64,000 bases of DNA from a virus: positions 29,402 to 93,401 of IMG/VR virus record IMGVR_UViG_3300033999_000083. One strand, written 5' to 3'. Under the pieces are notes generated by a model that did no database searches, had not been told where the DNA came from, and was given only the letters and a program-made list of their open reading frames with translations. The number at the start of each line of letters is the position of its first letter. Within the stretch, counting starts at the first letter, position 1. The position numbers and the translations under genes were made by a program. Below are positions 27,281 through 64,000 of the stretch, piece by piece.

Positions 27281-30200
27281 TTATCTTAACATTTCAAACA
27301 TACCTATAGATTGTGCAGCTGCTTTACCCAAAGTCTTGTCACCTTGAATAACATCTCCTACATTTTGCGTGGCTCCTAAACTCCAACTTAATCATGCTGG
27401 TTCGGAACTTAATGCTCCAAAAGTATTATTTCATAAATTATACTCATTAAGTACTTTTGTATTAACAGCATCCATAAAGGCTACAGTTTCACCACTAAAA
27501 GTACCTCTTTCAGTAGAATCTTTCATTGAGTCGTATATAGCTCTCATAATACCTAATATCATAAAGATCAAAACAGAATCTCCTATAGCATAAAGAGTTC
27601 TATTCACTCTTCATTTATTCTTTTTAAGATCATCCCAGTTTAATCTAACCAAATCATTTATTGTATAAAAGACAGAATAAAATATACCTTCTTGTGGAGT
27701 ACCATTTCAAGCCATAAGTTTTTCATCTGTTTCATATTCTACAATTTCTCTTTTTGGAACACCATACTCATCTAATACTGGATCACCATTTTCATCTACA
27801 ACATCTTTAAGATATAAATGTATTGGTTTACCTTTATCATCGAGTATTAGATTGCCATCAGCATCTTTTTTGACTGCATGTTCAAACTTACCTACAGGAG
27901 ATGCATCAGCTGATATTGGTTTACCAAATCAAAATTGCATCTTAGATGGCCAATACTGCATAAATTGAAAGAATGCAATTCCTGCTAACTTATTATTAAT
28001 TTGAGCTTGTGCATCTTTATCATATGCTCCATATACTCTATCAGCCATAGCTTTTATTGAGTTTCTTTCTTTAAGAGTATAAGCTTTAGGAATTAAATCT
28101 TTTTCTGTAAGATGACCTTCTCCTACAATAGCATATTCAGAATTAAATTGTTCTATCATTAAAAGATATAGATTTCTTTGCTCATTGTATAAAGAGTCTC
28201 CAGATTTTTTAGTATAATTGCCATCAGCATCCTTATACTTTTCCCTTTCTGCTAAGTAATAGGAAAATCTTTTATCTTTTCTTGGATCATATACTAAAGT
28301 ATTTCCTTTCATAGAATGCGCTTCATAAGAACCATCTTTAATCATTCTAGCTAATAATATGGCTAACCTATTAAAGTAATCTCCACCAGTTGATGTAGCA
28401 AACATTCATCTACCTAATCCCCTTGCCAATCCTAATTTATCATGTTGAACTTTTTCTGGCATGGTTGCTATATCCATATTAGCTATTCTATACTCATTAT
28501 TTAATGCCTCTATTAAATTATGTTCTACAGCTTGTTTTAACCCTACAGTTAATAACTTTTCATAAGCCTTTATCATTTCTTTTTCTCCAAAGTCAGCATG
28601 TATTCCTGTACCAGCAGTAAGTAGATTTCTTATAGTTCCAACAGTTATTTCTTTTACTAACATAGTTGGTCTAAAAGCTAGCATTGCTATAGTAGAAAAT
28701 TTCTTTTGAAAAGCTAATCCTTGAGCTATATTTTTCTCTTCATCATCCACTAATGGTTTACTAAATACTGCTAGGTTTACCTGGTTAACTATATAGTTTA
28801 GTTGCTTCCTAACCTTTTCATCCATCTTTCCTCCCATTAACTTCATTCACCATACATATGATTCAATAGTTGGGAGTATTATATCAAATATTCTTTTTCT
28901 AGTTTTATAAAAAGCTACCTTATGAGCTATAGTATCAAGATTTAGTTCAAAATAATCTATTTGCTCCCTATCCATCATTCTTGCTCTTGTCTCATCATCT
29001 TGACTTCCAAACACATCATACATTTGAAAAAACCCAAGTCTTTGATGTTCTATATTTTCTACATCAAGTGAGGAGAATTCTCTAGGATCTATGGTGTCTC
29101 TTAGATTATCTTTTACCATATTATATCACTCACCAAACCCAGTTACAAGTCTTTTATATTTAGAGATTTCTTCTCTCCTCATAAGTGGCATTTTAAAATA
29201 ATCTCCAGATTCTATTCTAGCTTTTAGTCATTTATTATTAGTAATGTTCTCTAAGTTAGTTGGATCTATAGAATAAATTTCATTTTCTGGTAATCCAGCC
29301 ATGAAACCATTTATATAAAGCAATGTTTGTTTTAAATATTTTCTCTGGTCTTCAGTTAAAGCATTTTCTTCATCAATTATATATGGATTTTTAGCTCTAA
29401 AAGATTTATCAATTTTTCCAGTTTCTTTATCCTTTACAAAAAAGTCAGCATGTATAGATTGAGTTTCCCCTCAAGTCATTTGTTTAAACTTACCATATCC
29501 TAGTTTTCTATAAAGTTCATCAGTTAAAGGTCATTGGTGTTCACTAAATTTATTAAGTTTCTGTCCATTTATAGAGTTGCCATTAGCAACCATCTCATTT
29601 ATATTCCTTAAGTCTTTGGATTGAACAAATTCTGGATTAATCCAGGATAACCCACCTATTATACCAAGTATTCTATTACCTTTTTTATCATATTTTCTTT
29701 GATTCTTGTTAAGAATACCTAATCACAGAGACTGAAAATCTCCAGCCTCGATACTATATTCTGTTAAACCTTGAAAATCAACTTCAGGTTTTATACCAGA
29801 TTTAGATAATATAGCTGTTTGTAATAAAGCATATAATACTTCTGTTGGATTTTGAAAATCTAGTTCTTTAGTTGGTTCTACATCTCTATATTCAGGAAAA
29901 GCTATTAGAAATTGATCCCTTGCTTCAATTAATCTTTCTCTTGATATTTCGTCAAACCTATTATTTTGCAGTATAGAAAATATATTTTCAACTTCTTTTT
30001 GTCCTTTACCTGCATAGTTTTTTACATAAGTATTTAGAGTCATTAATGCAAGATCTTCTGTTCCTACTAAATCATTGTCATTAATTTTTATTTTATCTCC
30101 CATACCTACTTCATTCATTCTTCTTCTAAACCAAGTAAGAACAGTTGCAGAAGACCTATATCTACTTTTTCCATTCCTACTATTAAAAACTATTATTTCT

Positions 30201-31921
30201 CCTAACTTATAAGCTCCTTTGGCTAAAAGAACATCTTTATATTCATTTAAGAAATACATAGCTTTTAACATTTCTACCTGGTCATAAGTCATTCCTTTAA
30301 TTCCAGATTCTGCTCATAAGTTATGAACTGTAATATCAAATAAATTTATTATTCCAGTTTTAGTATTTCTCATGACAATTATTCCTAAGGCATCAGCTTC
30401 GTTAATACCTTCTAAAACTTGCCAATCATCATTTAAATATTCTGTTAATACGTGGTCTAAAGCTATATCTTTTTTACTTGGATTTTTTCCTAATTTTATA
30501 CTAGAACCTGTAGCAATAGATGATATTACAGCATTTTTTACTACACTAACACCTCTACCTTCTAATGATTTTACATGATTTACATATAAAGCCATCTTTT
30601 CTCTAAACTTTGCTTCTGCTTCCTCAGCAGTTTGATGTTCAGTAGTTTCTATTATCATCCCTTCTGGTAATCCATCTATATCTTTAAAACCATTATATTT
30701 TTTAAATACTCCAGTTTTTTCAAATCTTTCTCTAGAGTTTTTCATTAATAACTCTAAATCATTATCTTCCCACTCTGTTTTAACTCTGTAATCTGGAAAC
30801 AATAATTTATTCAAAGAATCTTTAAGTGCTGCTATTTTATTTGGATCATACTCAGGTTTAATTTTTCTAGGAAGTAATATCTCAGCAATAGAAGATATTT
30901 GTCTATACTTTTCTAAACCAGAGACTCCTTGAGTAGTTCTGTTTATTGGAGTTCCAAATTTTAAAGTAGTTACATCACCTAACTTACTAAATTCTATAGG
31001 TATTATATAAAGCCTAGTGTTTTCTACATCTATATGTTGTCCTAATAATTGTCTTTCTAGAGCTAGCTCCCAATCATAAGTAAGAGTTTTAGATTCATCC
31101 CAATCACTAAAAGGATGTTTAGATATTTTCACATCATATATACTAGCCACTCCAGAAGTATTAACAGTTACTATACCTAGTTTAGCTTTTAATTGAACAT
31201 TATTTGCTTTATTAGGTAAAGATACTAAATGAATAGAGCGTAAGGGTTCTCCTTCTAAAGAACGTATTATATTACCAATAATAGACTTTATTCTTTCTTC
31301 TCATATAGATATATCTACATCATTACCAAATATCTCTGGATTCTCTGAATAAAATTTTCTAAAATCTTCTTCAAATTTTCCATTATTTGATAAAATCATA
31401 TCTACTCATTCATGAAACTTAATACTAAAATTTTTAGTCATTTCTTCTATTCTAATCCTACTTTCTACTTCAGCAAGTGCAGGTATTAAGTCTTTATCAT
31501 CGTATTGTTTTAATACAGGATCTCTCTTTAACATCTCTAAATATTCTGGAGTATAGACTGCACCAGTGTTGTTAGTATACTCTTCTAAATGTGCCTTAAC
31601 AAATTCTAGAATTCTATTTTCTTGTATAAATTCTGGAGCTAACCTACTCTGTCCTTTTAGTGCTGCTATATTTCCAAATATTTCAGCATGAGGTTTAGTA
31701 ATAAATTCATACACAGTTTCTACATCTGTAGCTTCATAATAAGATTTAGGAGAATTAGCTTTAAGTATTTCTCTTTTAATACTATCTACCACATCTTCAG
31801 AACTAAATATAGAATTTGAAGCTAAAATACTAGTTTCTTTTAGAAAATCTTCATATACAGAACTTTCTAAATCATATCTTATTAATTCACCATTTTCTTT
31901 TTTATAATAAAAGCATCCCAT
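27281..31921 (-). CDS. Giant virion-block protein, 1546 aa, nuclease-like region (TGA=Trp)
   Basis: Reconstructed by reading TGA as Trp at, among others, 31406, 30314, 29723, 28847, 28406 and 27929, all in one frame, closed by TAA at 27281. Around residues 245-290, GIVTVNTSG ... IYDVKISKHPFSDW ... WELALERQLL resembles a PD-(D/E)XK core (D263-x-K265, then Q). Near residue 1441 a hydrophobic helix (LYAIGDSVLIFMILGIM) suggests membrane contact. The start at 31921 (TAA-T-ATG) is preferred to 31930. Position at the end of the giant-gene series suggests a packaged or ejected protein. No family can be named. Confidence 0.8.
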
Positions 31922-31922
31922 A

Positions 31923-34900
31923 TTAATCACATTTTAGTATTATTTTATTTTTAGCCCATTCTCTAAATGAAGCTTCTGAATCTATTAATCTAACATTATA
32001 GTAAGGAGAAGATATATCACTTTTATAATTAAATATATCTTTTAAAGATGACTTAAACAATTCTTCAGGATTATTTATTGCTCTTTCTATATTTAAACTA
32101 AAATCAGGATTTATTTTTTTAATTACATTATATAACTGTTGAGCTACTATCTCTGCTTTATCTAAAAAATCAGTAATATAATCACCTTGTAAAGCATTAA
32201 CTATAGCTTTAACAAACTGTTCCTCTCTTTCTGAAATATCTTCCTCATTTTCATTTTTTCCTAGTACAGATTCAATTGTTCTTTCGTATGTACTGTAATC
32301 ACTGTATCTGAGTAATGTTAAAAATATATGTAAATTTTCATGAACTAGATCTGACTTAGTACCTTTATTTCCATTTAATAATATAGAAGTTTTTAGTTTA
32401 TCATCTACTACTTCAGTTTTTATTTTAGCAAATTGATTATTTTTAAACTCTTTACTATCATTACTTATATCTACATCTATACTATAATTTCCAAAGTATG
32501 CTTTCATTTTATCTAATAAATCCTGCATACCAGCAATATTAAGAATTTCATCATGAGATAAGATACCTCCCGTAGCTTTTAACAAAACATTGGTTTTACT
32601 GTTACCACTTTGTAAGTATAGATTATATATTGCACCATCTGGAGTTGTGTCTTTACCATCTATCTTTATTGGGGTTTGATATAATTGTTTTTTACTAAAT
32701 ATTCTTTCTACAGTTATAATATCACCTTTATCATTAGTTCTGTTTGTATGAGCTATAATTTCATTTCCAACATCTTCCATAACTCTGTACATAGTGTCAG
32801 ATAAACTTCCATGTTCAGCTATAGTAAAATATACACCTTTCTTTAAAGGATTTATTCTTTCTTTTTCTTCTATCGGTATTTTATTAAAATCAGTAATCTT
32901 TCTAAGATCAGATAAATTTCTTTGATACTTTCTAGAACCATTTAAGTCAGTAACATAAAGTTTAGTATTTTTATCTATAATTTTAAAGAATGTAGCTTTT
33001 ACATAATTAGTAATATCTTTATATCCTCTTGGAATATCGGTATATTTATCTATATATCTACCTATATTAGCATAACCAGTTGGAAAAAATACTAAACTAT
33101 TTTCATCTACATCGTTAGGAATAATATATTTCACTTCTACAAGATTAGTTTCTTGTTCTGCAATCCCAATTGGTTTAGGGGTTACTTTTCAATTATTGAC
33201 TCTTAAAATATGCACAGTGTATGGAGATGAGATATCTCTTGGAGTATAAAATTGTATATTAGATATATTGGATATATCTACTGTTTCATATACTTTAGAG
33301 GTGTCTGTAAATATTATACCTTTATTTTTATCTACTATTTTACCATATACTGTAGTTCCATTTAGTTTGCCATAAAAATAATCCCCTTTAGTAGCTTTAT
33401 TAATATCAAAAAATGAAGATAGTGTTCTAGCTGATATACTCGAAGTATTAACGTTATCTATTATTTCTTTTCTTTCATTACTAGTAAACACAGCATTCGA
33501 GTGCATCCATGCTTTACTATCTCTTAATTCTATTCTTGAAATTGGTTTTATGTACCTTTTATTGTCATTACCTACTATTATAAATACATAATCTGGATTA
33601 GAATATACCACAACTGCTTTATTTTTAATAGTAGATGTGGGATCTACTATAATATCATCTTTTGATATAAGATTTACATCACGTATTTCTGTATAAGCAT
33701 TATAATTAAAGTTCTTAAGTACATTAGAATATACTTTATACAATTCTCCTAATTTGGCTGAATTAAAATTCTTTACATCAGAATATGCTTGTTTAATAAA
33801 TTCATCACCAGATTTTACATATAGATATGCAGGATATACACCTACTACAGTACCTATATCTGTTTTATCGCCAATCATTGCATTGTCTTTTATAAACTCT
33901 TGCAAATCGTTTCTAGACAAATACTTAAAATTTCTTCTTAATTCTACAAGATTATCATTAGTTAAAATCTCAGCATCTGGATCATATGGTATTTTAGGAT
34001 TTTCTCTTTTTCTTATAAACAACTCATCTCCTGGTAAATATGCTTTCTTAAAATATTTGTAATTACCTTCCTGATCTTTGTATAAACTAACTATATAGAC
34101 ACCATTATTTTTTGGAAATATGTTCTGAATAATATATGGATTAAAATGTTTTTTACCAGTTTCATCTACTCTAGGAACCATTAACAAGTCTTTTCCTATG
34201 GAAACATTTTGAACTATATATTTATAATCTACGTTGTCTAATTTAATCATTTCAGAAAATAAATCATCCTTAGCTTTTGTATAATCAAATAAATTTATAG
34301 CTTCAGCATAAGACTTTATCTTATCAACATTATATTCACTACTAAATGCTTTTTCCATTTCTAGAAATTGCTGTTGATTTATAATCTCCCTAATTACATT
34401 GTATCCGTAACTATTTGGGTTTAAATTTTGAAACACACTTTTAGTAGTACTATATAAAGAATTTGTAGAGTCTAGTCTATTAGTGACTAACTTTATTATT
34501 TCAGAAATTACATTATTATTCTCTTTACTTTCTAATAATTTTTCAAACTTAGAAGGATTAACTGCTTCTTCTGCTATATTATCAAAAAATTCTTTAGAAG
34601 TTTTTACAGTATCTATTTTATATTTTGTAAGAATATCGTTTAATAAATTAACATCAATACTATTCCCAACTCTTTTAAAAAGACTTAAAAATAGAGAACT
34701 TGGATTATCTTCTTTAAAAAATGAGTACTCATCTACATTTATTGATTTTAGTCCATATTCTGTTGAAAAAGATATTAATACATTCTTATCTTTATTTAAC
34801 ACTCTAGATGTATGCAGTGCTTCTAAGAATTTTTTAATATTATCCAGAAAAGTATAATCAAATCCTTGAGTTCTATTTTCATTTATTAATAAATCTAATT

Positions 34901-35354
34901 TAGATATCTCATTATTAAGTGAAGTTACTCCTAATACTTTATTAGTATCTAAATTTTTAAAATCAGAAGGCAATAGCCTTCTGTTAATTCTCTCATTAAT
35001 TTCATTATACTTTTCTGGATTCTTATATAAATAATTTTTTAAAGCTTTAGAAAAATCTTTATATGTTGTAGAATACTCTAATTGTTGATTTATTTCTTTT
35101 ATAATGTCAGAAATTTTATCTTTATTTAAAGCATCTTCTATCACATATTTATTTATCTTAGTTACTTTAGTATTCTCTTTAATATAAGATACAAGTTCAT
35201 TTAAAGCATCATTTCTTTCAGATGGTTTAGCACTCTTATAATTGTTTATAAGTTCTATGGCTTTATCATCATCTAATTCTAAACTTCCAAAATCAGCAGG
35301 AATTATTATCTTTTCTCCTCCTGGAGTTCTTAATATATATACACACTTTGCCAT
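31923..35354 (-). CDS. Large virion-block protein, 1143 aa, with HExxH motif (TGA=Trp)
   Basis: Two open stretches joined by TGA at 33189 (W722), closed by TAA at 31923. The N-terminal 700 residues are alpha/beta without known motifs (CVYILRTPGGEKIIIPADFG at the start). At residues 1005-1009 HENLH, in the context DLVHENLHIFLTLLRY, matches the zinc metallopeptidase HExxH helix, so self- or virion-processing is possible. It starts one base after the RNA polymerase gene (TAA-T-ATG) and is probably cotranslated with it. Function otherwise unknown. Confidence 0.8.
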
Positions 35355-35355
35355 A

Positions 35356-38300
35356 TTAACAATTAAATTCTACTATAAAACCACCTAAATTTATCTTTCT
35401 AAGTAAAGAGTTCATCTTATAATATGATGTATCATATTTGCCAGTTATATTTCAAGTTAAAACAAAATCTGGATTAGCTATCTGTGCTTTTACTTCAGGG
35501 CTGTCTTTTAATTCTGATAATACGCCTCTTTCATTAAATGAATAAAACAATAAATCTTCTTTAATAGTTTTATCATATTTTTCTTTTAAAGACTTTCTAG
35601 TATCTTCATCAGCATTTATATACTCTGGACTATTATATAAATCATCATACAAAACGTCTATATCACCTTTATCTATTTTTGAAAAGAACTTCATATAGTC
35701 TAAAGATAGAGAATCAAAACTTTTTGTATAGTCTCTAAAAAGAGGTGTAAGTCTTTTATTCCCATACCTTTCATTATTTACAACTAGATTATAAATATAG
35801 AACAGATCCCTTCACTGTAAAGGTTCCCCATAAGCATTTTGTATCTTATTAGCAGTTAATACATTACGATCTATGTTATTAAATGCATCAATAAGCTGAT
35901 TAAATTGCTCTATAGCTATTGAGGAATTTAATCTTTTAAGTTCATAAGCTGATACTATAGCATTAGTTTTTAATCCATATTGATTTGTAATAGTCTCAAC
36001 TCTAAGATTTTTTATAACATTAGAATTGTCTAACTGTTGTAGTAATGGCAGAACTGCCTCCTCCATTAATTTCTTAAAATTAGCAATACCATAATCTGTA
36101 GTTAAATCTACAATATAATTATCTTCTGGAGTTACTGTTATAGTTTCTAAGTTATATCTTGAACTGCTATCTTTATATAATGTAATGCTATCCATTCCAG
36201 CTTGCTTAAGTATATTTCCAACATCAAAAATATATTTACTCATTTTATCTGTTTTTAGTCATAATAACGCAGCTTTAGTATCAAAATAGTTAGATCCTTT
36301 AGTTAAATTACTTATAGCAACACGTCTTGGAACATCATTTTCACTTAATTCATGAGATTCATCATTTAATACATTTTTTAATGTATTTAGTGTAAAATTA
36401 TACTTCTCAGCAGTATCTTTTAATACGTTATCTGACATATCCAAACTTTCTATAAGTTTTTTGAAATGGGGAACTTCATCAACTACTTCAAAAATATTAA
36501 AGGTTCTTTTAATAAGATTATAGTATTCTTTAACATATTGCCTATATCTAGGACTATTAAAATAATAATTACTATTAAAGTTATGTAATATTTTTACAGT
36601 TTTACCGTTTTCTAAAGTAAGAGAATTTACTGCATCATATATTTGTCCTATATAACCAATATCTTCTGGAGTTAATAAGTTATTATATTTTAGAATAGCA
36701 TCTATAAATTTAGGTTTATCTAAATTTTTAAAATCGCTAATTACTAAATTTTCAGCTGATCTTAATATATTATCAAATCTACTTAAAAAATTATACATTT
36801 CCCAAGTTCTGGCTTTTAGTTTTTGATTTACTCCTAATATACTTGTAAGATTAGCAAATTCTTGAGAATCTAGATATAACTGTTCAAAAGCTGATAATTG
36901 ACTTTGATCTACAGTAGAATCACTTTTTAACTCTCTTATAACTTTAGTAACAGAGTTACTAAGTTCGTTATCATATATGTTATCTGTAGATCTCAAAACA
37001 ATTTTTGAAGCTGTTTTAGAAGTCATAAATTCAGTAATTTGATCTGGAGTAAATCCTAGTGCTATCATATAAGCGTGCATCCCTGCTAATTTTGGTGAAG
37101 CATTAACCTTTGCCATAATAAGCTCTTTTGCATTGTCTGTTGCAGCTGATACAAATGCACTCATATATACAGCACTATTTGGAAATAATCTACTATAATT
37201 ATCTCCTAAAACTCTTTTTAAAGATTCTTCTTGTTTTCTATTTATAAGTACATCAGGCAAGCTTCCTATAAATATCCTTACATCATTTCCAAAATCATCC
37301 TTGAATTTAATATCCTTCTTAAATAGTTTACTACTACGTCTAAGTTCTGTATCAGTAAGATCTCTATTTCCCCAAGTATTTAAAAAGAAGTTATTATAAT
37401 AAGCAGTTAAAGCAAACAATCCTTTTACTCCATTAGCAGCTATACCAGTGTTATCTTTACCTACAGAAGCATCATACTGTTGTTGATAATAAGATAACAT
37501 ATCATGAGAATTTAAATTATCTTCATCTGATATATTTTCTACTTCTTCTGTGTTAAATTCTTCCACTTGATTGTCTTCATAAACCGATTCTTGCTTTGAT
37601 ATAATATTCCTCATACTATCCAACCCAACAGAATTTAGTCTTTCTTGAAGATTTTCAATTGCTTCTTTTTGTGTATTTCCATGACTTGTAATTCTACCTG
37701 TTCTTTTTTCATATGTAGTTCATGGGCCTCCATCTCAATCTTGTGATATATAGAAATTAAGTTCTTCAAATCCTTTAATTTTAACAGGTTTACCATAAGC
37801 TAAACTATATGCAGTTTGGCCTTCATCAGCTTTATATATTCTGAATTGTTCATATCCTTTTTTACCTTTTCCTAAATCACTATCATAATCTGAATTATGT
37901 AAAATAGTTTGAACTTTTTTGTTATTTATAGTAGGTATTTGTTTATTTCTTTTATTCTTAACTCTGTCTATAGCATCATGTAGTGGTTGTACATCAACAG
38001 GTGTATTGGCATTAATTTGGTTACTAGCAGAAGAAATAACTTTATTTATTTTTTGAACAATAGAATTCTTAACACTATATGGACTTGTACTATAATTAGT
38101 ATATGTAGTATGCTTATTTAATAACCTCTCAAATTCACTAAAAGGTAAATTAGGATTTTCTTGACTTATATTTATAGGTAACACATCTAGATTAGTAGTT
38201 GGTAAAGCTCTTATAAATTTATTAAATAATAGAATAGTTTCAGTTGGTAATTCATATTCATATGATACATTAGCTAAACTATTTGCTATTTGATTATATA

Positions 38301-44300: not shown

Positions 44301-44421
44301 TTCCAAGTTCTTCTGCTATATACTCTTCTAAATCTAAAAATGTAGGATTATCAGCGTCAAGGAGGTAGTTGTCCATAGCCTCGATGATACGTTTCTGAAT
44401 TTTATTACTACAGGTATGCAT
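35356..44421 (-). CDS. Giant protein, 3021 aa, with single-chain RNA polymerase active site (TGA=Trp)
   Basis: Assembled from eight or more in-frame stretches joined by TGA (43600, 42064, 40849, 38689, 37735, 36259, 35812, 35452 and several within gaps) and ended by TAA 35356. At residues 1979-1984 VHQIFLQGSDFDVDKAYIL carries the DxDxD catalytic motif of double-psi beta-barrel RNA polymerases. The preceding RIPSQSMQSFMPMRNVGYI also fits the crAss-like/phi14:2-type virion RNA polymerase. Such enzymes are packaged and transcribe early genes after injection. The other domains (residues 1-1900 and 2100-3021) are not recognised. The start at 44421 overlaps the upstream TAA (TAATG). Confidence 0.85.
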
Positions 44422-50400: not shown

Positions 50401-53400
50401 TTAGATACTCCATTTTCATCTACTTCTGACAGATATTTATCATCTATATCAGAAGTATTTTTAACTATATTACCCTCATTATCTATACCATAATCAACTC
50501 TTTTTATCATTGAGTTATTAAGAAATTCATCAAATATATTAGTTTTATAGACATCCCATGCTCCTACTTTAGTAGTTCCTCTTGATTCTAGATTATTCAT
50601 CACATCTATAAAATGAGTAAACCATTTTTGCTTTTCTTGAGGATTAGAGTTATGAAATAGATAAGCTGTTTTAGCTAAATCGATTACATCTTTATATACT
50701 TTACTCCTTTCTACAGAATATCCAGTATCATGATATTGAGCTATTATTGGATTTATTAGTTTTTCATTATTTAAGAAAGCATTTGTAGCAGTTTTTAACT
50801 TACTCTTAATATCAGTTGAGTCTATATAATCTTGTCATTCTTTATTAACTGATTCTTTAGTTACTATGCCAGTTTCTGGTAATTCATCATAACTTTTCTT
50901 ATAAACTGCTTTTGTATATGTGTCTCTATCGAAAGATCCATATTTAGATATTATAGGTTTATCAAGTAACATAAGCAATTGGTTAAAATACTCCATGCCT
51001 AGCTTACCTTCCAATATGTCATTAACTCTACTAGAATATCCTTTAAGTTCTTCTCTCTTAAGTTTTATTTGCTCTTTATTATTTTCTGGATCTTTCTCAA
51101 GATTCATTATTTCTGCTTTTAGTGGAGCTATTTTAACAGCTGTATTCTTTAGGTCATCAAGAACTAAAGCTTCTATACCAAATGGTTTATCATCTGATTT
51201 AAGCTCTTCAAATCTGTCTAATATAACTTTAGTACGTATAGCTTTATCAATTATTTGTTCATCGGTAAGATTTAATCCTTCAGAATTTAAAACAGTATCT
51301 AACTGATCAACCATACCTATAACTAGGTTAGCTACGGCATCAGCTTGAGATACACTCTCTTTTGGTTTAAATTCACCATCCTCTGTAACGTATGATAAGA
51401 AATCATTAGTAAGTTTTTTACTTTCTTTTCTAATCATATCTTTAAGTTCTTCCTTATGACCTCCAGCTATAAGTTCAATTAATTCTTTTTTAGTTTCATT
51501 ACTTACAGATTTATTATCATTGGATAATCAAGGATTAATTTTAAATCTCTCCAATTCAAACAATCCTCCACCTAAAACACCTCCAATGAAGTTAGCTAGG
51601 TATTCTTGTAAGAATTCTCCACTAGTATATTTTTCAGCTATCCTTAAATTTCCTCTTTCTTTAGTCAATCCTAGATAACCCATAACATCTATTATACCTT
51701 GAGTAGCATCCTGAACCATTTGCTCAGTAACCTCTTCTGCACCTTCAATCATAGCATTTCTAAACATTGCTTCTCCTAGTACTGAAGGGCCAGTAAACAT
51801 ATTGTCTAAATTCCTTTTGAATTTAGTAGATAGCTCTGCAAGTTTAGTTCTCTTTGCTGCTATACTTAATCCTGAATTTTTAAGTATATCATCTGTCTGT
51901 TCAAGATATGGTTTTATAGCTTTATTCATTAAAGCATTATTTACTCCAATAGAATAGCCTGTAGTCTTATCCAAGAACCAATCACCCATTCTATTATTCA
52001 TCATAATACCATATTGACCAGCAGCTGTTAATAAAGATGCAAATCCAGCAGTTCTTCTATCATATCCAGAATCTATAGCTTGCCCATACACATTACCTGT
52101 TGAGGTTAATGCCATATATCCAAGACTTAAAGCCTTTGCAAACTGGGACTGCTTTCTATATATTTCCTGTAATTCAGGTAAATCTTGTACTGCATTTCTT
52201 ATAGCTTCCTTAGCATCAATACCATATTTTGTAGATGCTTCATAAGCTTTTCTAGACATAAGATTCTGTAATTCAGCAGTTCTTTTATCTAAAAGTTTAT
52301 CAGGCTTCATTAATAACCTAGATAAACTAGCCATAGCTCTCTGTTCATAAATCTGAGAGAATACACTAGTTACCATATCAGACATTTGCTCTAGATTTCA
52401 GAAACTTCTAGAAGCTTCTTCAGATTTACTACTTTGATTAAATTTAGCCAACCATCCTTCAGCTTTGGTAACTGGATCTGTAAATATGCTTTCTTCATCA
52501 CCGATTAATAATCCTTCTAAAGATTTATAAAAGGTAGGAAGTACAGAAGCTAGACTAACAGCTGCTCTTGTCCCAGCATACCAAGTATTTAGTCCTGGTA
52601 TGAGTAAAGGAGCTACTTCTGCAACAGCTTTAGCAGCTACTTTTCCTACAGATTTAGTTCTTCCATCTGAATCCAGAAAATCAAATTTATTAAACACACT
52701 TCCATCAGTTGTTAAAATATCAGTAGGACTAACAACTTGTTTTCCATACACCTCTCTATCTCCAAGAGTTTCTAAGTATAGATTTCCATCTGGATCAAAT
52801 TTTCAATCACCTTTTTTATGATTTACAGTATTTCCAGTTATAGGATCAGTATGTACACCATCTTCATCCCATTGGGCATATACTAAAGTTTCACCAAAAA
52901 ATTTATCAAATATATTTTTCTTATTAGCAGAATCTAGCCATTCACCAGTTCTGGTATCTAATATCTTTCCAGATTGAGCTATTTCTGTTGGACTTAAAGG
53001 ATTGTCTGTAACTGAGTTTACCCAATCTCTACTATATAACTGTTTAAATGGATTTATGTCTTCAGAAAATTCAATTTTTACATCCCAAACTTTAGCTTCT
53101 TTTGGCCTAGTTACACTAAATGGATTATATTTAACATCGTCCAGATTCTTTATAGCTTCTTCATTAGATATCTGATTATAATTAAATAAAGCTTTATTAT
53201 AAGCTGCATTAAAAGCTGCTTCATCAAATTTACCATCTGGTCTAGTAAACTGTGCTTTTATTACAGATTTATCCCTATATGCGTCTCTATCTAATAACCT
53301 TGTATTTAGAGGATTTACATTATTATTTAAAAAATCATATGTAGTAGCATTAGGATTTTTAATAGTAGCTAAAAACATATCATTTACTATTCCAGACTTA

Positions 53401-53429
53401 GTCTCTATTTTAGGCAAATTATCATTCAT
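44421..53429 (-). CDS. Giant protein, 3002 aa, with embedded SF1 helicase domain (TGA=Trp)
   Basis: One frame from 53429 to TAA 44421, read through TGA at 52803, 52398, 51528, 50835, 48279, 46494, 45567 and 45294. Residues 262-300 hold a hydrophobic stretch (APLLIPGLNTWYAGTRAAVSL region). Residues 1775-1783 GSAGSGKTT (Walker A), about 1912 LLIIDEVTHF (Walker B), VVGLGDQNQLGY (motif III) and, near the end of the domain, NNVQGSEVDYMIFG and FASRSRSASIII (motifs V/VI) define an SF1 helicase of the RecD/Dda kind. The flanking 1,700 and 900 residues are unknown. It is probably packaged with the RNA polymerase, which follows directly. Confidence 0.85.
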
Positions 53430-55317
53430 ACGAATCCTCCATATCTTCTATTGTTGATGGAACAAAATTTGTTCCTGATTTATTTTGAACATGATACATA
53501 ACATCTTCTTCTGTATAAGCTGGTTTAAGTGGCCCATGCCCAGCATAACTTGAGGCTATTGCATCGGCACTCTGTACAAGTGGCATAAATATTATTCCTT
53601 TATATACATGGTCTTGTTTCATAAAACTTTTTGGATCTTTAACTTTAACTTTATTACCTTCTTTTACAGTCCAGGCTTGTTTTAATATAGGCCAAATACC
53701 ATCTTTTTCAGAACTTTCAATTTTTCTAAGACCTCCATTATTATAGTTTAAATTGTTGGTTACTAAGTCATCAACTGCGGCAGTCGTATATCCTCATGTT
53801 ATCAAGAATGGTTTCACATTTCCTCCAATCATTCTGGCTTTTACATTTTTATTTGTATCCACAGTTACATCAAATCTATGTTGATTAAATAGTTTTTGTA
53901 TCTCTACTGGTGACATAGTATCTTTATTTTTGTTGTAGATATCCATAACATTTCTAAACGATTCTAGTGATTCTTGGGTTGGTTTACCACTATTATCTAC
54001 TGGTAACAAAACATTAGCTACTTCGGAACCACCGTCTAAAGCTATTTCTTTGGTATTTCATATGTTTACTTTATTATTACCAAAGTATATATTATTTCTA
54101 TCTACATACTTTTCATATTCTCCATTTTTAAGAACATTTTCTAAAATAGTTGGGCCAATAGGATCACCTTTAGGTGTTACTAAAGGCATTTGTCCAAATA
54201 GCAGTCCTTCATATTTAGCTGCAAATTCTGGATCGTTAAATTTCATAGTAGCTCCAGAACTTAAAGTACCTCTTATAAACATTTCAAATGGTGATAAACG
54301 AGTAGCATGAGTTAAACTTTCACCAGAACCAGACCCTGAACCAGCACCTCCTTTTATAGGAACAATATCAGTATCCTTAGAAACATCACTTCCAAATACT
54401 ATTAAATCAACTAATAAGTTAGTTGGATCAGTATTGTTTAAAGCTGCTTGAACAGATAATTTCTTTTGAGCACTATTATTTAATGTAGATCATATATATT
54501 TTGCTGCTTTTAAAACATGATTTCTTTCTGTACTAGATTCGGTAATAACTTTATTATAATTAGAGGGACTATCTTTCATAGACTCTAGTATAGCTAATCC
54601 CTGTAATTCTTCATTTGTAGCTTTTCTTCCTGTTAATTGAATATCTTTTCCAGACTGATCTAAAGCAGATGCTAAACTGTCTCTATCATATATTTTTGCA
54701 GCTTTTATTGTTTCTTTACCTAAAGCAGCTACTATGCTATTGGCATATTTAGATATTTCTTCCATACCAATAGAATTATTAGCTATATTAAATATTTCAT
54801 TTTTTCCAGTAAGATTTGGGTTAGAATTTCTTTCTTCAAGCAATTCTGCTACTGACATAGCTCTATATCTATCTGTATTCTTTTTATATTCTTCTGGAGT
54901 AATTGCTTTTATATTTCCTTCACTATCCTTTACATACATTTCTCCAAGATCTCCAACAGCAACTTCATTTAAGCCCTTAGATTCTTTAGCCGTATTATAA
55001 GATTTTTCTCACATAAACTTATTTTGTTTAAGCTCATTAATTCTTCCTATAATAGCCAATGCTTTTGTTCTATTTTGCCTACTTAAGAAAGGATTTGAAG
55101 ATGATTCTAGTTGTGCTAATTGGGAGATTAAGGCATTAGTATCATTAGTCAATCCTTCTACTCCAGATAATTGTTTTACTATATCATCATCTAATATACT
55201 ACTCTTATTACCAGTAGAGCCAACAGCTCCACTTTGAGCTGCTGGCATACTATATGATGGGACAATTGTGGGTTGGTACACAAGTAATCCCCCTTGTTGT
55301 AATTTCTTATACTTCAT
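53419..55317 (-). CDS. Cargo-like virion protein, 632 aa (TGA=Trp)
   Basis: Joined through TGA at 55009, 54490, 54058 and 53794, with a last TGA at 53422 directly before TAA 53419, so it ends in Trp. The N-terminus MKYKKLQQGG shares the KLQQGG motif with the small protein at 59623. The first 120 residues are rich in Ser, Gln and Ala; a Gly/Ser linker (KGGAGSGSGSGES) marks a domain boundary near residue 325. It overlaps the 3002-residue gene by 11 bases and the upstream gene by one. By position it is a virion (cargo or tail) protein; no family can be named. Confidence 0.78.
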
Positions 55318-58300
55318 TATTTAAACACTTTTATTAAAGCTGCTTGTACTAACTTATTATTATTTAAAAGTTGTCTATAAAACATTTCTTCATGTTTTAG
55401 AGCTTTTCTATTAGAAGTTTTAACATTCTCTAATACAATTCTTTCACCAAGATTTAAAGTTCCACCTCTTGCATAATATGGAGTTGTTGCCATACCATAT
55501 GGAGATACTGCTGCTACTCCTCTTTGTAAAGTAAGTAAATTAGTATTTAAAGAATTTATTAAGTTTTGATGAGCATCTTTTACTTCTTTATATCTTCTAC
55601 CCATAGGAGAGTCTTCAAACTTAGGTCTATTAAGATATTCTGGAGATGTTTTATCTAATTTACCATAATACTCATCATACTCCTTTTTAAATTTATCTAA
55701 TATCTCTCCATTCAACTTCTGCTCATAGTTATAAGCATTCATAATATTAGGATTAAGAGTTTCTTGCATATAATTCCATGAAGCCTCTTTATAAGGTCTT
55801 TCAGCTGAACTATATGTTAAATATCTTAATAAATTTTGAATATTAGCATTTTTTACAGCAGCATTATTAGCATATAGTTTATATACATTACTTCTAGCCT
55901 GAGAACCAAGCGCAGATATTTTATTCATAATACCTGTATTATAAGTATTTACCCTACTATTTAAATCAGCTTGCTGACTAGTTATTTTAGTATTCATATC
56001 TATATCTCTATACTTGCCTTGAAGTTCGGTATCTGATGCTTGTTTATTAGCTTGTAACCTATAAGCATTTGCTTTATCTATATCAGCTATAGAAGTTCCT
56101 AACCTGTTACCATATCCCCTCATTTCTGCTGCTTGCTTAGAAGCATAATTACTATATGGAGTACTTGTTTTTAAATAAGTATAATCCATAGTACTTAACT
56201 TAGGAATTTCAGTAGCTGCTCTTACTTGTAAATTTGTTGACTTATCATTATATAAATTGGTAAGCCCATATTGTAAAGTGTTAAAGAACAATCCTAAATC
56301 TTTATATGGTTTTTTAGTATATGGAACTGGGGTAAATTGTTCAAATGTATTATTACTTGTATTATTCCTAGTATCTGATAAAGTTTTTGGTAAATTTATT
56401 CTAGAATACATATTCTCAAATGTATTTGTATTACTATTTAACCCTTTATACCAAGATTTATTAGATAATGGATTATCATAAGATAATTTATATTGTTTTT
56501 TACTGTCTCCTAAAATACTCAATAAACCGCCTATATCTTTCTTAGGAACTTTTTTATTAAGCAGCCTTCCAATAGTACCGTATTGAGTATATCCTTTTTC
56601 CAATTGGTCTTTAGCTAATTTATAAGATTTAACATCCTTATATTTAAGAGATGCAGGAGCATCATTTAGTACAACAGTGCCTCCTGTACTTGGAGAAAAT
56701 TCAAATTCTATCTTACCTATAGATTCTTTATTGAGTATTTTTTCTAAAGCTTCCTTATCTTTATCGGATAAATTTTTCTTTACCTTTTCTAGAAATTCTT
56801 TTTTAGCTTCTTGTGATTTACCAGCAAAAACAGTTTTCTTGCCTAAAACATTTATTCCTTTATTTAGTCCTTTTTGTCTTACATCACCTTCTACTTTAAA
56901 TGATTTACCATCTACTTTTATAGTAGTTTCAGGAGTAGTTCCTCCCTCTACATGAGTGTTTAAGTTTCTAGAAGTAGAATATTGTCTATTTTTATAGCCT
57001 ATTCTTGATAAGCCTCCTAACTGTATCATACTTCTAATATCATCTACTGAAGTATTTCCTATACCAGCTAGACCATCTTCTCTTACATTAGAAACTAAGT
57101 TTCCAGCACCTGTAATTCCAGCATATCCTGTGTATAATGGAAGAATTGTTTTTGCTACACCAGAACTTTTATCTATAACAAAATTTCCTGCCTTTTTAAC
57201 ACCTTCTATAGCATCCCTAGTTTCATTAACAATTGTACTTTGTTTTAACTTTGCTAGATCAGCTACATTATCTAAATCTTTACCCAATACTTGCCATAAT
57301 TCCTCTGAATTTCTAGCTTCAGAGTATCCAGCAGATTTAAGAGCATCATTTAGTTTTTCTACTTTCTTTGTATCTTTAAATGCTTTATTACTGTTTATAA
57401 ACTTACTTAGTTTAACATCTTCTCCTAGATTTTTTCCAACCTTTGTAAGATTTTCAGCTGACTTAACAACTTCATCTGCACCTCCTAGATTTTTAGCCAT
57501 TTTTACTAAGTCTTCTGCTTGGTCTAAACTTTTTGCTCCTTTATAAACAGTTTTAGCTTGCTTAGCTACTTTTCCAGCTTTTGCTGCACCAAAGCCTAAT
57601 CCAGCTAATAAAGTAAATCCTAGATTTCCAAATAAATTCATAGTATCTTGTCTATCCCATCCTTCTTTATATCCCTTTATAGCATCAGCACCAGTTGAAA
57701 CTAATCCACCTATTACTCCAAGTCCAGGAATAAATGATGCTGTAGATCCAGCTAAAGATACAATATCTAAGGCATCGGCATTCTTTATTGCTCTTGAAGT
57801 ATCTTTTACTCCTTTAATAACAAGTGGCTGTGTTGCAGCTTTATTAGTAGTAGGCTGTGTATTTATAGCATACTGTCTATTAGTTTTTACTATATTTTCT
57901 AGAGTATCTCCATTTTGTGCTTTTAGTATTCCACCTTTCTTGTATAAAGAAAATAATTTTTTGCCTTCTGGATTTGTAATTGCAGCTATTTTACTAAGTT
58001 TTGCAGAATTTTGATCAGCAATTCTCTTTTGTTCAGGATTGCCATATACTCCATAATACTTTAAAGCTTGAGCAATTTCTTTTAATTTCTTTTGATTTAT
58101 ATCTGCATCATTTTCTTTATTAATGCTATTATCTAAAGCTTGCTCTATTTCAGATAAGTCCTTTAATACTTTTTCAAGATATCCTGGTTTGTTATATTTT
58201 GGTAGCACACGTAACGGTATATTTTTAAGTGGTAATGTAGGATTATTCCATAATACATCTTCAGATCTTGGTTCAAATCTTATTGTTGAACCAAATCGTT

Positions 58301-59564
58301 CAATTTCTGGTATTTTAATAACTCCAGTTGGAGTTTTATAAGTACCATCATCTTGTCTAATAGCCCTAATCAGTTGTTTTTTATCTTTATTGATAAAAAT
58401 TATATTTTTTAGAAAATCTCTTCTACCAAATTCATCTCTAGCAGTTTCACCTTTTAGTGAACTACCTGAATCTCCATAAGCTATCCATCCTTCTTGTGAA
58501 CTAAACTCAGGTATATCTTGTTTAAATATTAGCTGTTTAGATACATCTCCTTCATCAGGAAATTCTGGTAATTTAAAATTCTCTGGTCTTACACCTTTTT
58601 CGTGTATTATTAGGTCACCATTTACTATAGAAAAAGTTTTTCCATAGTCTGGAGATAAAACATCAGTTGTAAGTAATCCAGATTCATTAGTTACTAAATT
58701 ATTATTACCTATTATCTTATATCCTTGTCCATTTGTTAATGCAGTATAATTTTTACTTTTAAGATAATTACTTAGGTAAGGATTTAGATTATCAGCTGGT
58801 TTAGTATATCCAGATTGATACAAGTAATTTTGTACATTTTCATCTGTAATACCTATATCTTTTAAAGTATTAGATACATTTTTTACTTTTTCAGCTTCTT
58901 CTTTAGCTTTAGTTTCTTCCTCTCTTCTAGCTAATTCTGTATCTGGTATAAGAAATCTACCTGTTTGCCAGTTTAACTGATTGGTTCATGCTTTTAATTT
59001 ATCCCAATCATCGTCTGTTAGATTATTATAATCAATATTAGCTATATTAGAATATATATTTTTAACTTTGTCTAAGTCTCTTCAATTATCAGATGGATTT
59101 TGTGCAGCTTTATTTATATAATCACTAAGCAAGTCTTTAGCATGTTTTGCAACATACCTTTTAACTTGATTGTTATCTTTCATTTTTGCTATTTCTTGAG
59201 CTGCATATTCTGTATTTCCACCAAAGTCTTTATTAGCTACATATGTAGCTAAATCACCTATAGATCTTTCTACTGGCCCTCATCCTTCTTTAGGAGTTAT
59301 TGGGGATACGTTAGAGGTAGTTTTTTTGTAATCTTGATATAAATTCGCAAGAAAAGCATCAGCTTCTTCTGGAGTATTAGCAACTATTTGACCTGCCCAA
59401 TTCTTTTTAACATTACCAGAAACAGTGCTTCCATCAAAGCTTTGTAGTCTCTGATTAATTATCGGATAAGATTTATTAGTTAAAGGTAAGTCCCCTTTAG
59501 CAAGCCTTTCTTTAACATAATCTGCAAAACTACCTCCATTATCATATTTTTTTACTAATCCCAT
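55317..59564 (-). CDS. Large virion protein, 1415 aa, with glycine-rich hydrophobic segments (TGA=Trp)
   Basis: The 1168-codon open stretch plus its N-terminal extension through TGA at 59280 and further TGAs (around 59092 and 58987), closed by TAA 55317. The N-terminus is MGLVKKYDNGGSF. Near residue 540 is SLYKKGGILKAQNGD, then glycine-rich hydrophobic stretches (SFIPGLGVIGGLVSTGADA and FTLLAGLGFGAAKAGK, about 600-660) that could insert into membranes, a long helical region, and a C-terminus with YYARGGTLNLGERIVLENV. The layout suggests an ejected or tail-channel protein. A hairpin terminator lies just upstream of the gene. Confidence 0.78.
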
Positions 59565-59883: not shown

Positions 59884-61053
59884 TTACACATACTCTGCTG
59901 GAGTGTTATCTTGTATTTCTATAAACTTAAATACTCTTTTTCCAAGAGATTTATAATCATTATCATTATTTGAAGAAGTTGCTTTTTTAGCAAACTTTAT
60001 CAATACTTTAGTATTATCTATACTCATTATTCTCTCTCCACCATCTAATATCATTTGTGGTTTACCTTCTGGATCTAAAACTATCATTTTTTTATTTACT
60101 TCTAAATCAGAAATAAATTCTAAATCATCCCCTATTTTAGCTCCAGATCCACTATTTACTTCTAATACATAGTCTCCCTTTCCATATATTGGTTTAGGTG
60201 ACATAGGTTTTCCTTTGGAAACTTGAGTTACTCTAAAATCATTATCCAAAAAGATAATATCTAGCGGTATCTTAGTGTCTTCCATAGTAAACAATACTCT
60301 TCCATTACTATCTTTTTCATCATCATTTATTACAAATAGCATTCCTTCGTCTTCTGGTAAAGAATCTCTATTTGATAATCCAATAACTTTATCTTCCTCA
60401 TCTTCTACTATTTCTACATAGTATTCTTTTCCTGCTAATTCAATAAGCTCAATATCTCTAAACTGACCTCCTTTTTTAGCCATTCTTATGTATTTACCTA
60501 CAGAAGATCCTCCTTTTCCACCATAATACTTAGAATCAGAACTGTCTATACCCTTATAGAGATATTTCTTTAATCCTCCATAACCACCAAGCCACATAGC
60601 AAAATCTGCTCCTTCTGGAGTATAACCAAATTCAGATAGCTTTTCTAAATCTTCTTTAGTTAGAGATTTTCTATTGTTTTGTAATAAATTTACTGCTAAA
60701 TCTATTTGTTTTACTGGATTAGCTAGAACTTCTTGTGGTTTTAATCCACCAAGATTAGTCTCTCATAACTGAAAATACCCATATGCAGGAGCACCAGCAG
60801 TATTCTGTATATTTCTAAAACTACTTTCTTTTTTAGCTATCCTAGTAAGAATGTCTTTATACTGAGACGCTTCTGGATTAATCTTTAAATACTCTTGTCA
60901 AGCTTTCTCATATTCTTCTGGCCCAGATATATTACTACGTAATATTGTATTTTCTTCTTTAGGACTCTCTTCAGGATTTTCTTTAAAAATCTTTTTTCTA
61001 TAATTATCTAATAAGTCGAATAAGGATGCTTTAACAGTATTAGTTTGTTCCAT
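59884..61053 (-). CDS. Lytic transglycosylase-DUF192 fusion protein (TGA=Trp)
   Basis: 389 residues, two TGA codons read as Trp (W52 at 60898-60900; W97 at 60763-60765). Residues 60-160 look like an SLT/lysozyme-type domain: ILTRIAKKESSFRN with candidate catalytic Glu76, then AYGYFQLWETN, where the Trp in QLW comes from TGA. After a KKGG at 193-196 comes a DUF192 domain: DKVIGLSNRDSLPEDEGMLF, TKIPLDIIFLDND. The transglycosylase part would open peptidoglycan during infection or lysis. DUF192 function is unclear. TAA stop at 59884. Confidence 0.8.
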
Positions 61054-61062
61054 TATTTTTTA

Positions 61063-61281
61063 TTATTTATGATTCCATTTTCTAGCATTTTGAGCAAAAG
61101 TGGCTCTTTTTCTAATCTTAGGATCAGGACTTCTTTTGCCTCTAGCTATACATTCAGCAGTAACCTTCCCACCACAATAATCAGTAAACTTACCTTTATT
61201 TTCTGGCTTTATGTGAATTTTACCACCTTTTTTATATTTTCTTTTATATTCTTCTGCTTTATAACTTGCTAAATAATCCAT
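61063..61281 (-). CDS. Small basic virion-block protein
   Basis: 72 residues, very basic: MDYLASYKAEEYKRKYKKGGKI, then GKFTDYCGGKVTAECIARGK and RKRATFAQNARKWNHK. I chose ATG 61281 (TAA-T-ATG after the upstream gene) over 61299. The KKGGK motif matches its neighbours. The layout resembles small basic proteins encoded among structural genes of large gut phages, perhaps DNA-binding or capsid-associated. Function unknown. Confidence 0.7.
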   Translation of the reverse strand: MDYLASYKAEEYKRKYKKGGKIHIKPENKGKFTDYCGGKVTAECIARGKRSPDPKIRKRATFAQNARKWNHK

Positions 61282-61282
61282 A

Positions 61283-62551
61283 TTATTTAATGTTATCAAT
61301 TAAACCAGTATTATCTTTAGTATTTAACAATATTTCATGTGCTATATACTTACCACATTCAGTAGCTATTCTATCTTTCTCTTTTTGGTCTTCTGCTTTA
61401 TTATATAAAGATAGAAAATGTTCTATTTTATCAGTAGCTCCTTTATGAAATATAATCTCATTCCTTTCTATTTCAGCATGTTGCTTTATTTTACCACCAT
61501 CTTCTTCTGTTATTACAGGGATACCTTTAGAAGTTACTTGTTCAGATATTTCTTCTGGCAAATTATTTTTTCTAGAGTGAAAAGCTCCGTCTGGTATAAC
61601 ATTATGAGGAGATGCTTTATCAATTATTCTTCTAAGATGTAACTTTGTGCCTTTTCTAGCAGCTAACATATTAGTAGAAACTCCTCCATAAAGTTGCTGT
61701 AAATTCCTTTGACTTATATGAGATACTGAGTTATTAGCAGCTCTCATATTTTGTAAATAATCATATCCAGGAATTGATTTTAATATATTAGAAGCATCAT
61801 AATACTTAGTTAAATCATTAGTTTTTTCTCTTTTGCTTTTACCAAACCATCCTTTAATAGTATCAGATAAAGTATATTTAGTATTTGCATTTTGATTTAC
61901 ATCAGCCTGACCATATCCTAATATACTTCCCATATCAGCAGTACCTTGTTTCTTAGAAGTTTTTCCAGCATACTGATTAACCAAATTTCAGGCTTGTAAG
62001 CCAGCATTAGCTGCTCATCCTACTCCTGGAATAAAACCAGCTATATTTGCAGCTACATTTAATCCTTTATCAAAAGTGGATAAATTTCTTGAATTAGCTT
62101 TATTTACTCCTAATGCTTCCAAACCAATTCCAGCTAAACTACCTCCTACACTAATTAACCCATTTGGACTAAATGTTGAGAAATTGGTTAAGTTTTTTAC
62201 AACATCAGTTCCTCCTTGTCCAAGCAACTCACTAAAGTTACCTCCTAGAAATTTACCTAAATCTGATAATATACTAGGATTTTTAGTAACTTGGCTAGTA
62301 GCTTGTCCAGCTAAGTAAGAAGTTAATCCAGAAGTAAGATTATTATTATTAACTGGAATAGTTGATACACTTTGTCCAAATAAATTATTAGATACTGTAT
62401 TGCCAAATAAATCTTTTGGCATTTTTAGTATATTAGACATTCATTTTTTATTGTTATCCTCTATTAAAGCAGACGGATTATCAAATCTAGTAGGAGGTAA
62501 ATAATATTGATAGTACGGATTTATATATCCGTTATTTATAATATTAGGCAT
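61283..62551 (-). CDS. Virion-block protein, 422 aa (TGA=Trp)
   Basis: Starts MPNIINNGYINPYYQYY, continues through TGA at about 62441, at 62015 and at about 61991 into the open stretch ending at TAA 61283. The N-terminal half is Gly/Leu/Ala-rich with hydrophobic stretches (LISVGGSLAGIGLEALGV; NIAGFIPGVGWAANAG). The C-terminal half has HSRKNNLPEEISEQV, GIPVITEEDGGKIKQHAEIERNEIIF, a pattern I associate with crAss-like virion proteins. Probably structural or ejected. It overlaps the upstream gene by 8 bases. Confidence 0.78.
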
Positions 62552-63023
62552 ATGATACAGTATAATATGTTTTTATTGCATTCACTATAACGTACTTAGT
62601 TCCATCATATCTTACTCTTACTTTAAGATACTTATCACGTATCTTTGCTTGCTTAGCTTCGGATAGTGTAAGTTCATTGTTTTTCAAATAAGCATATTTA
62701 ATAACTATAGGTTGTATTTGTATATCTCAAGCATCTTCCAAATATTCCATATTACCTCTTAACCTTCCGAATTTTTTAATTGGTAATGCTCTTTGATACA
62801 TTTGTACTACTATTTCTTTTGTTTTACTAAGCATCTTAACATTAATATCCCTTAGTAGTTCTCAAGTAGGAGTAACATTTGATAATAATACGTTAGAGCT
62901 AGAGGTAGTGTCATAAGTTACTGGAATTTTCTCAGTTAACTCTTTAACACATTCTATATATGGAATTTTTAGAGGAGCATTAGCAGTTTGTAAATATGCT
63001 AAGTAATTTTCTTGTATTGTCAT
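62544..63023 (-). CDS. Virion-block protein, 159 aa (TGA=Trp)
   Basis: ATG at 63023 to TAA at 62544, visible only if TGA is Trp: two TGAs (in TPT-W-ELLRDI and LEDA-W-DIQIQP) break it into fragments under the standard code. Sequence highlights: MTIQENYLAYLQTANAPL, MYQRALPIKKFGRLRG, KIRDKYLKVRVRYDG. Alpha-helical then beta. Lies in the structural block with one base to its upstream neighbour. Not recognised; a connector or ring protein is possible by position. Confidence 0.7.
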
Positions 63024-63024
63024 T

Positions 63025-63342
63025 TTATAAATATCTAACGAAAGAAAACCTCTTTCTAGTTTTTAAATAATTCAAATCTCTATCATTATCATAAGCTTCT
63101 CTTTCAAAACTTATATTTCTATATGCTTTGCTTGAATATTTAAATAACTTAATTATTCATTCTATAACATACCAAATATAAAAGAATATATAAAGTAATT
63201 CTTTCATTTGGTATGTATGAATTTCTTCATGATTAAGAGTATATTTATCTATATAAGCATTCTTTCTGACAAACAATATACCAAAAAGATTTATTGCTTT
63301 AAATCCTTGAAATGGGATGATGTTGTTTCTAATTATTTTCAT
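63025..63342 (-). CDS. Small HExxH membrane-associated peptidase-like protein (TGA=Trp)
   Basis: 105 residues, TGA at 63157 read as Trp (residue 62). HEEIHTYQ (HExxH) is followed by a hydrophobic helix LLYIFFYIWYVIEWIIKLF that spans the TGA, then AYRNISFEREAYDND. I associate this layout with small Bacteroidetes and phage proteins (NHE-x-IH-x-x-Q-x-ELL...YxFYxWYxIE...AYRNISFEREAY). Continuation after TGA gives the expected ISFEREAY region, so it is good evidence for the code. The second HxxE-type ligand would be the Glu of FERE. Enzyme activity unproven. Confidence 0.78.
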
Positions 63343-63594
63343 TGCTCAATAATTTGTTAACCGCAATTTGTATAAATGCTTTAAAATATTGGCCGACATA
63401 TTTTTCAATAATAGCCTTGTTTTCGTCTGTCAACTCAACAATCAGATTCTTGTATAGGCCTAAACAAAACGAATGTTCTGCCAAACTTTGCATCGTTTAA
63501 ATATGACTTCCACCAATTCTTTTGACAAGTTATATTACATAATCGACCCATCAATCATCTCAATCTGTAATTTTGATAAATCTGCTGTTTTCAT
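63329..63594 (-). pseudogene. Interrupted small gene (stop plus frameshift)
   Basis: ATG at 63594 begins MKTADLSKLQIEMIDGSIM and hits TAA (about 63535-63537). Beyond the TAA the frame continues as YNLSKELVEVIFKRC. A -1 shift there leads into QSLAEHSFCLGLYKNLIVEL ... FIQIAVNKLL, ending TAG 63329. The three pieces read as one protein of about 88 residues carrying one nonsense codon and one frameshift. The last piece can also start alone at ATG 63493 (54 residues). A sequencing or assembly error is an alternative to a real lesion. Confidence 0.55.
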
Positions 63595-63605
63595 ATTTTT
63601 TATGT

Positions 63606-64000
63606 TTAAATTTTTACACATAGTGTACTTCCGTTTCTATATATCTGCCCATAATATAATCCACTTGAAGATGAAGGTAAATTGCCAACATCAATTATCC
63701 ATTGCAATTGTCCATCTAAAAATGCAATATCAAAAAATGATGAAACGCCGCTAAGAATTAATCTGCCCCCAAACATTTGAGTTTGACCAATTTTATTTCC
63801 ATTTATATCATAATTATATAATAAAAAATTAGCAGATGAACCATCATCAGGGTCATTATAAAATGCCATATCGACAACAACTCTATTATTTGAGTTAATC
63901 ATCTTAAATTTTTTTTCACTAGGAGAAATAATTATTCTATCTCCATTTGCCGTACTTTCAAATAACCCCCTAATAGCTACATCTCCACTTGTACCCCATG
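63606..64000 (-). CDS. C-terminal part of a putative tail fibre/adhesin protein, partial
   Basis: The frame is open to the right edge, so at least 131 residues, with the N-terminus outside. Contains SGDVAIRGLFESTANGDRII, a beta-rich region (RVVVDMAFYNDPDDGSSANF) and the C-terminus DVGNLPSSSSGLYYGQIYRNGSTLCVKI, the L-P-(T/S)SSxGL...G...NxGxLxxV ending common to phage tail and adhesin proteins. It stops with TAA, 11 bases before the next ATG. Uses more GC-rich codons than the rest of the block. Confidence 0.7.
   Translation of the reverse strand, partial: WGTSGDVAIRGLFESTANGDRIIISPSEKKFKMINSNNRVVVDMAFYNDPDDGSSANFLLYNYDINGNKIGQTQMFGGRLILSGVSSFFDIAFLDGQLQWIIDVGNLPSSSSGLYYGQIYRNGSTLCVKI

Follow-up and report, generated by a model that had tools for sequence, protein, structure and literature searches.

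A crAss-like phage that probably reads UGA two ways, with an intron-split tRNA-Trp(UCA) as its likely late decoder

Introduction

How can a phage end some of its genes at TGA and read through the same codon in others, and which tRNA decodes it? We asked this of a stretch of 64,000 bases, hereafter the window, which comprises bases 29,402-93,401 of a 93,401-base virus record. The plus strand of the window, from 1 to 26.6 kb, encodes helicase, DnaB-like, Toprim, ribonucleotide reductase, and Thy1-like genes, and a DNA polymerase A gene lies directly to the left of these early genes. On the minus strand, from 27.3 to 63.4 kb, lie ten long late genes, each of which forms one frame only when TGA is read through. 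TGA-to-tryptophan recoding in crAss-like phages has been described by Yutin et al. 2021 (PMC7886860) and in phage Lera (PMC12386605); its presence in late genes is already published, and the recoding reported here adds another case. A suppressor tRNA was found in 11 of 73 code-4 phages (PMC11210395), and the puzzle of the missing suppressor is also stated in PMC7886860.

The window is best explained as the greater part of the genome of a crAss-like phage that reads UGA two ways. We give a probability of about 85% to the full reading, in which early genes follow the standard code and UGA in late genes stands for tryptophan, read by a phage tRNA-Trp(UCA) whose gene is split by an intron. This reading draws directly on tryptophan at aligned TGA columns, the block-wise split of the code, orthologous tRNA(UCA) genes, the position of the intron, and covariation in P7 and P9. 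From these observations we infer the splicing, charging, and timing of the split tRNA.

Results

The window is part of a crAss-like phage genome

Two further records extend the window. G001 is 99% similar to the window's record, and G002, which matches the end of the window at 99.5% identity over a 211-base overlap and G001 at 97% over 33 kb, is placed by these identities as a same-species record abutting the window. Together they carry the late block at least 55 kb past the window end, up to divergent early genes; a previous annotation made without database searches (the sequence-only reading) had bounded the block at 27281-64000 and so underestimated it. A Crassvirus major capsid gene in the sister record's part of the late block matches PF23898 (Crass_capsid, E = 2.3e-12), and by this match the phage belongs to the Crassvirales. 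Our search for near DNA matches to the window in phage records returned none. Only two phage records, both public, match its capsid protein at 45% identity: MT835470, which uses the standard code, and MT835492, in which TAG is a sense codon. Next to the DNA polymerase A gene, outside the window on its left, are a LAGLIDADG open reading frame and two group I introns recognized by Rfam (L004:13286-14821).

Searches with the capsid and neighboring genes yielded 139 loci. The window's clade uses code 4, with one short locus falling just below the calling threshold, and its sister groups are TAG-recoded or use the standard code. A single-gene tree requires five code changes, compared with 24 in shuffles, and the code, as judged from these sequences, is stable within the window's clade.

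TGA is the only break in the late frames

Ten minus-strand open reading frames under translation table 4 fill 27281-63441 and comprise 11,870 codons. The last gene of the block, 27281-31930 (1549 aa), contains 15 in-frame TGA codons, and its orthologs contain TGA in 14 other records. Next to it lie 31923-35354 (1143 aa, one TGA at 33189-33191, an HENLH motif), 35356-44421 (3021 aa, 11 TGA, a weak match to a virion structural PHROG), 44421-53429 (3002 aa, eight TGA, weak helicase-like AAA/UvrD_C_2 matches), 53419-55317 (632 aa, five TGA), and 55317-59564 (1415 aa, three TGA). The remaining frames are 59884-61053 (389 aa, two TGA, a transglycosylase-like N-terminal half and DUF192 [PF02643]), 61283-62551 (422 aa, three TGA), 62544-63023 (159 aa, two TGA), and 63025-63441 (138 aa, three TGA), the last of which matches the PHROG 15610 protease.

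Within these ten frames we counted 53 TGA and 53 TGG codons; TAA, TAG, and frameshifts were absent. TGA makes up 22% of the stops in the other two frames of the same strand, and a run of 53 out of 53 would arise by chance with a probability of about 2e-35. The claim of the sequence-only reading that every in-frame late break is TGA therefore holds throughout, as does its description of 35356-44421 and 44421-53429 as single frames for proteins of about 3,000 residues. The three codons it named (60763, 63157, and 33189) are all TCA on the plus strand and in frame, and the motifs it cited are present: QLW in the transglycosylase-like protein, where the tryptophan is residue 97 and is encoded by TGA, and VIEW beside the HEEIH motif of the HExxH protein at 63025-63441. 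Other statements need amendment. TAA terminates all ten genes, as well as all 28 late genes of the window and sister records combined (148 TGA and 118 TGG codons), and TAG was never a terminator among the late genes examined; thus, the assertion that both TAG and TAA still terminate was half right. Tight TAA-T-ATG junctions are real, but TAATG overlaps are equally common. The reading also overstated its case in making production of much of the virion set depend on recoding, since the major capsid gene and four of its neighbors have no TGA.

TGA columns behave as tryptophan columns

To score the identity of the recoded residue, we masked TGA and aligned the proteins to relatives with the standard or TAG-recoded code. 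Over 84 masked columns, the log-likelihood was +65.1 nats for Trp, +17.9 for Phe, and +16.8 for Tyr, a lead of 47 nats over the next residue. At TGA, Trp accounted for 28-30% of the weight of the columns, and at TGG in the same proteins for 36-39%; the similarity of these weights indicates that both codons behave alike. The sequence-only reading had held that residues other than Trp at most TGA columns would speak against it; Trp has only about 30% of the weight there, but TGG-encoded Trp is conserved similarly. Three exchanges between TGA and TGG were observed between near-identical strains. The masked alignments bear out the proposed identity of TGA in the late block and support UGA as a second tryptophan codon of the late genes.

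The major capsid gene (L008:1816-3234 and relatives) is nearly free of the recoded codon under the TGA and TAG codes alike. In code-4 relatives it contains 6 TGA versus 82 TGG codons, compared with 313 versus 209 in other genes, and in TAG-recoded relatives 1 TAG versus 173 CAA/CAG codons, compared with 673 versus 1,725; these counts share ancestry, and p-values derived from them are therefore too small. The near absence of recoded codons from the capsid gene in both codes suggests that decoding them is costly.

Early genes keep TGA as a stop

The early block (1-26608, plus strand) follows the standard code. Among its 86 genes, counted together with the 29.4 kb to the left, 59 end in TAA, 16 in TGA, and 11 in TAG. 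Many of the TGA ends overlap the next start codon as ATGA. Behind most of them a TAA or TAG lies only a few codons away (for example at G000:12840, 17238, 22778, and 24541, where the backing stop comes immediately or a few codons on), as though guarding against readthrough in late infection. The early gene at 13730-15073 (plus strand) ends at a TGA stop, and code 4 would fuse it with 15077-15844. We rejected a single gene at 13730-15844 with TGA 15071-15073 as Trp, given that the two halves are separate genes in MT835492, 1.4 kb apart. Because early genes end at TGA and the TGA at 15073 separates two genes, no single code fits the entire genome. The recoding is not genome-wide, early genes use the standard code, and a whole-genome code-4 annotation wrongly fuses early genes. 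In G002, four DUF805b RNA motif matches, three of them above the cut-off, lie ahead of successive early genes (L209:16981-18035, plus strand).

A tRNA-Trp(UCA) gene is split within its anticodon

Neither ARAGORN in its plain form nor the Rfam tRNA model detected a UCA tRNA in the window's species (G000, G001, and G002). In relatives we found tRNA-Trp(UCA) with the loop CUUCAAA and G73, and in five of them (G004, G006, G008, G011, and G022) an unsplit tRNA(UCA) gene lies on the late strand 0.2-3.7 kb upstream of phoH. An intron-tolerant search located a 692-base tRNA-Trp(UCA) gene at the corresponding position in G002, at the head of the late block and upstream of phoH (53483-54174, minus strand), its U34 and C35 separated by a 620-base intron. 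When joined, its exons form a complete tRNA-Trp(UCA) with a perfect 7-pair acceptor stem, a 5-pair anticodon stem, and G73, and the anticodon arm matches that of G008 base for base. The split gene is thus seen in a same-species record, the window's own record not reaching into this region; the stretch left unsequenced could hold a further suppressor. RF1/RF2 or TrpRS genes were sought in 18 records and none were found.

The same base is split in further records. In G021, which belongs to the other code-4 clade of the tree, a 227-base intron interrupts the UCA tRNA. A strict scan of both strands of all collected loci for split UCA or CUA tRNAs found no distant pair besides that of G002, and it missed the G021 gene because the T arm of that tRNA is unusual. 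A pattern scan added splits at the same base in L259 (236 bases), L264 (583 bases), and L267 (620 bases). G021 and these three contigs have a full 5' exon, and L260 has the 3' exon only. L264 and L267 are contigs of a rumen MAG labeled Bacillota. ARAGORN returned no match for the spliced forms of G021 and L259. Of the ten contigs from the intron-junction scans, we discarded L263, L265, and L266, which look like chance matches, and L262, which looks like tRNA-Leu. A long variable arm with a GUCCAAA motif, unusual for tRNA-Trp, occurs in the UCA tRNAs at L238:1242-1337, L196:7327-7420, and L199:14870-14962 and in those of L264 and L202.

Several other tRNA-like elements were noted. Two were rejected as suppressors for having loops other than UCA: L004:886-959 (CAU) and L004:2122-2198 (plus strand, GAU). 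The latter is a tRNA-like gene with the loop CTGATAA, a long variable region, and seemingly no D arm. At the convergent early/late junction of the window (26919-27137, plus strand), about 120 nt of structured, fast-diverging RNA separate the D and T arms of a tRNA-like element. G001 has the same acceptor, D, and T arms; the RNA between the arms varies widely, with helices kept by paired changes, and GAGATGG/CCATTTC together with GATTGG/CCAATC could form a pseudoknot. This element contains TTTCAAA, but no splice product tried gives a full anticodon stem, and we rejected it as the suppressor. In G021, a tRNA-Pro gene is located within the anticodon loop of another tRNA gene (L202:3546-3703; outer stem CAGCG/CGCTG).

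The intron is of a group I type

The open reading frame within the G002 intron matches PF11645 (PDDEXK_5, E = 8e-11), the family of the homing endonuclease I-Ssp6803I, and PDDEXK_5 is also found in the L264 and L267 introns. The 3' core of the G002 intron has counterparts among the tRNA introns of relatives, one of them in G021 (76% identity). In five of five complete cases, the splice boundaries read CTT^...G^CAAA, such that the 5' exon ends in U and the intron in G. The P7 pairing (R and S elements) shows a GC-to-CG double change in three of seven introns, and P9 shows an AU-to-GC change among the same seven; when the partners were slid as a control, covariation fell to near zero. The Rfam group I model (RF00028) gave no match to the G002 tRNA intron at E up to 10 over an 861-base stretch, and because this model does not recognize the intron we call it "group I-type". 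Taken together, these features point to a group I-type intron with a PDDEXK_5 homing endonuclease and predicted splicing. The endonuclease open reading frame of L267:957-1576 (plus strand) has an in-frame TGA near its start, and its synthesis might depend on the tRNA that it interrupts.

Discussion

We propose that early genes would be translated by the host's standard code, with UGA allowed as an end. Transcription of the late unit would begin near the tRNA gene, which would form the 5' head of that unit directly upstream of phoH. The intron between U34 and C35 would have to be removed before UGA becomes readable, and the spliced tRNA-Trp(UCA) would then be charged by the host tryptophanyl-tRNA synthetase. 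Once charged, it would compete with host release factor 2, so that UGA in the downstream genes yields Trp. We infer this order of splicing, charging, and late UGA reading from the arrangement of the genes. A bolder version, which we regard as rather doubtful, makes group I splicing the gate on the phage code: UGA would remain a stop until the anticodon intron is gone, and the endonuclease would carry this gate from one recoded phage to another by way of the suppressor site they share, which host tRNA-Trp(CCA) does not offer as a target. Splicing of the tRNA might set the time of the code switch, or the intron may be no more than a passenger.

UGA might instead be decoded by the host or by a near-cognate tRNA-Trp(CCA), in which case the intron would have inactivated the split tRNA(UCA) gene and left it to decay. 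A lack of suppressor tRNA is reported for many code-4 phages (PMC11210395), tRNA-Trp(CCA) is present in some relatives, and one study reports that a tRNA-Trp(CCA) whose anticodon stem is short reads UGA elsewhere (PMC13092985). A decaying gene, however, fits poorly with a spliced tRNA that retains all stems, G73, and the exact anticodon arm of G008, and whose D and T loops differ in what looks like compensation within one pair (G19-C56 to A19-U56). The split form also recurs in several records, and the genome itself makes heavy use of TGA; we consider this account improbable. Even less credible is a host that itself uses code 4, Mycoplasma-like or similar, with no switch needed. Some bacteria do use code 4, and many code-4 phages share the code of their host (PMC11210395), but the 16 TGA-terminated early genes, their frequent ATGA overlaps, and the two genes parted at 15073 run counter to it, as do sister phages on the standard or TAG code. 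We give similarly little credence to decayed or misassembled late genes, or to leaky TGA readthrough into truncated and long forms, for which there is no direct support (readthrough efficiency is invisible in sequence, and the capsid gene avoids TGA as if its decoding were costly), and against which stand 11,870 codons free of TAA, TAG, and frameshifts, the like use of TGA in relatives, and TGA columns that act as Trp columns.

Under the preferred reading, in which an intron-split tRNA-Trp(UCA) decodes late UGA, anticodon introns may be a reason why recoded phages often seem to have no suppressor. The missing tRNA was found by allowing an anticodon intron, and no fewer than four additional records show this split; the split tRNA therefore offers a simple explanation, open to test, for some of the missing suppressors. 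A search of the open PMC literature for intron-split suppressor tRNAs in phages found none, and as far as that literature shows, ours is an unreported variant.

This phage resembles the recoded crAss-like phages described previously (PMC7886860, PMC12386605), in which TGA means Trp mostly in late genes, relatives use TAG recoding or the standard code, and some genomes carry a suppressor tRNA-UCA. Unlike in those phages, the suppressor here is hidden by an anticodon intron and stands at the head of the late block. Bacterial group I introns interrupt the anticodon loops of tRNA-Leu(UAA), between U34 and A35, and of Synechocystis tRNA-fMet, which carries I-Ssp6803I. The phage intron shares with such introns the split after U34, the terminal G, the P7 R and S elements, and a PDDEXK_5 endonuclease, but it sits in a stop-codon suppressor tRNA and is not matched by Rfam RF00028. 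HDV-like theta ribozymes adjoin phage suppressor tRNAs and, like the intron described here, are thought to aid the maturation of recoding tRNAs (PMC10879173). Those ribozymes lie beside the tRNA and cleave its end, whereas the RNA in this phage splits the anticodon itself and needs splicing.
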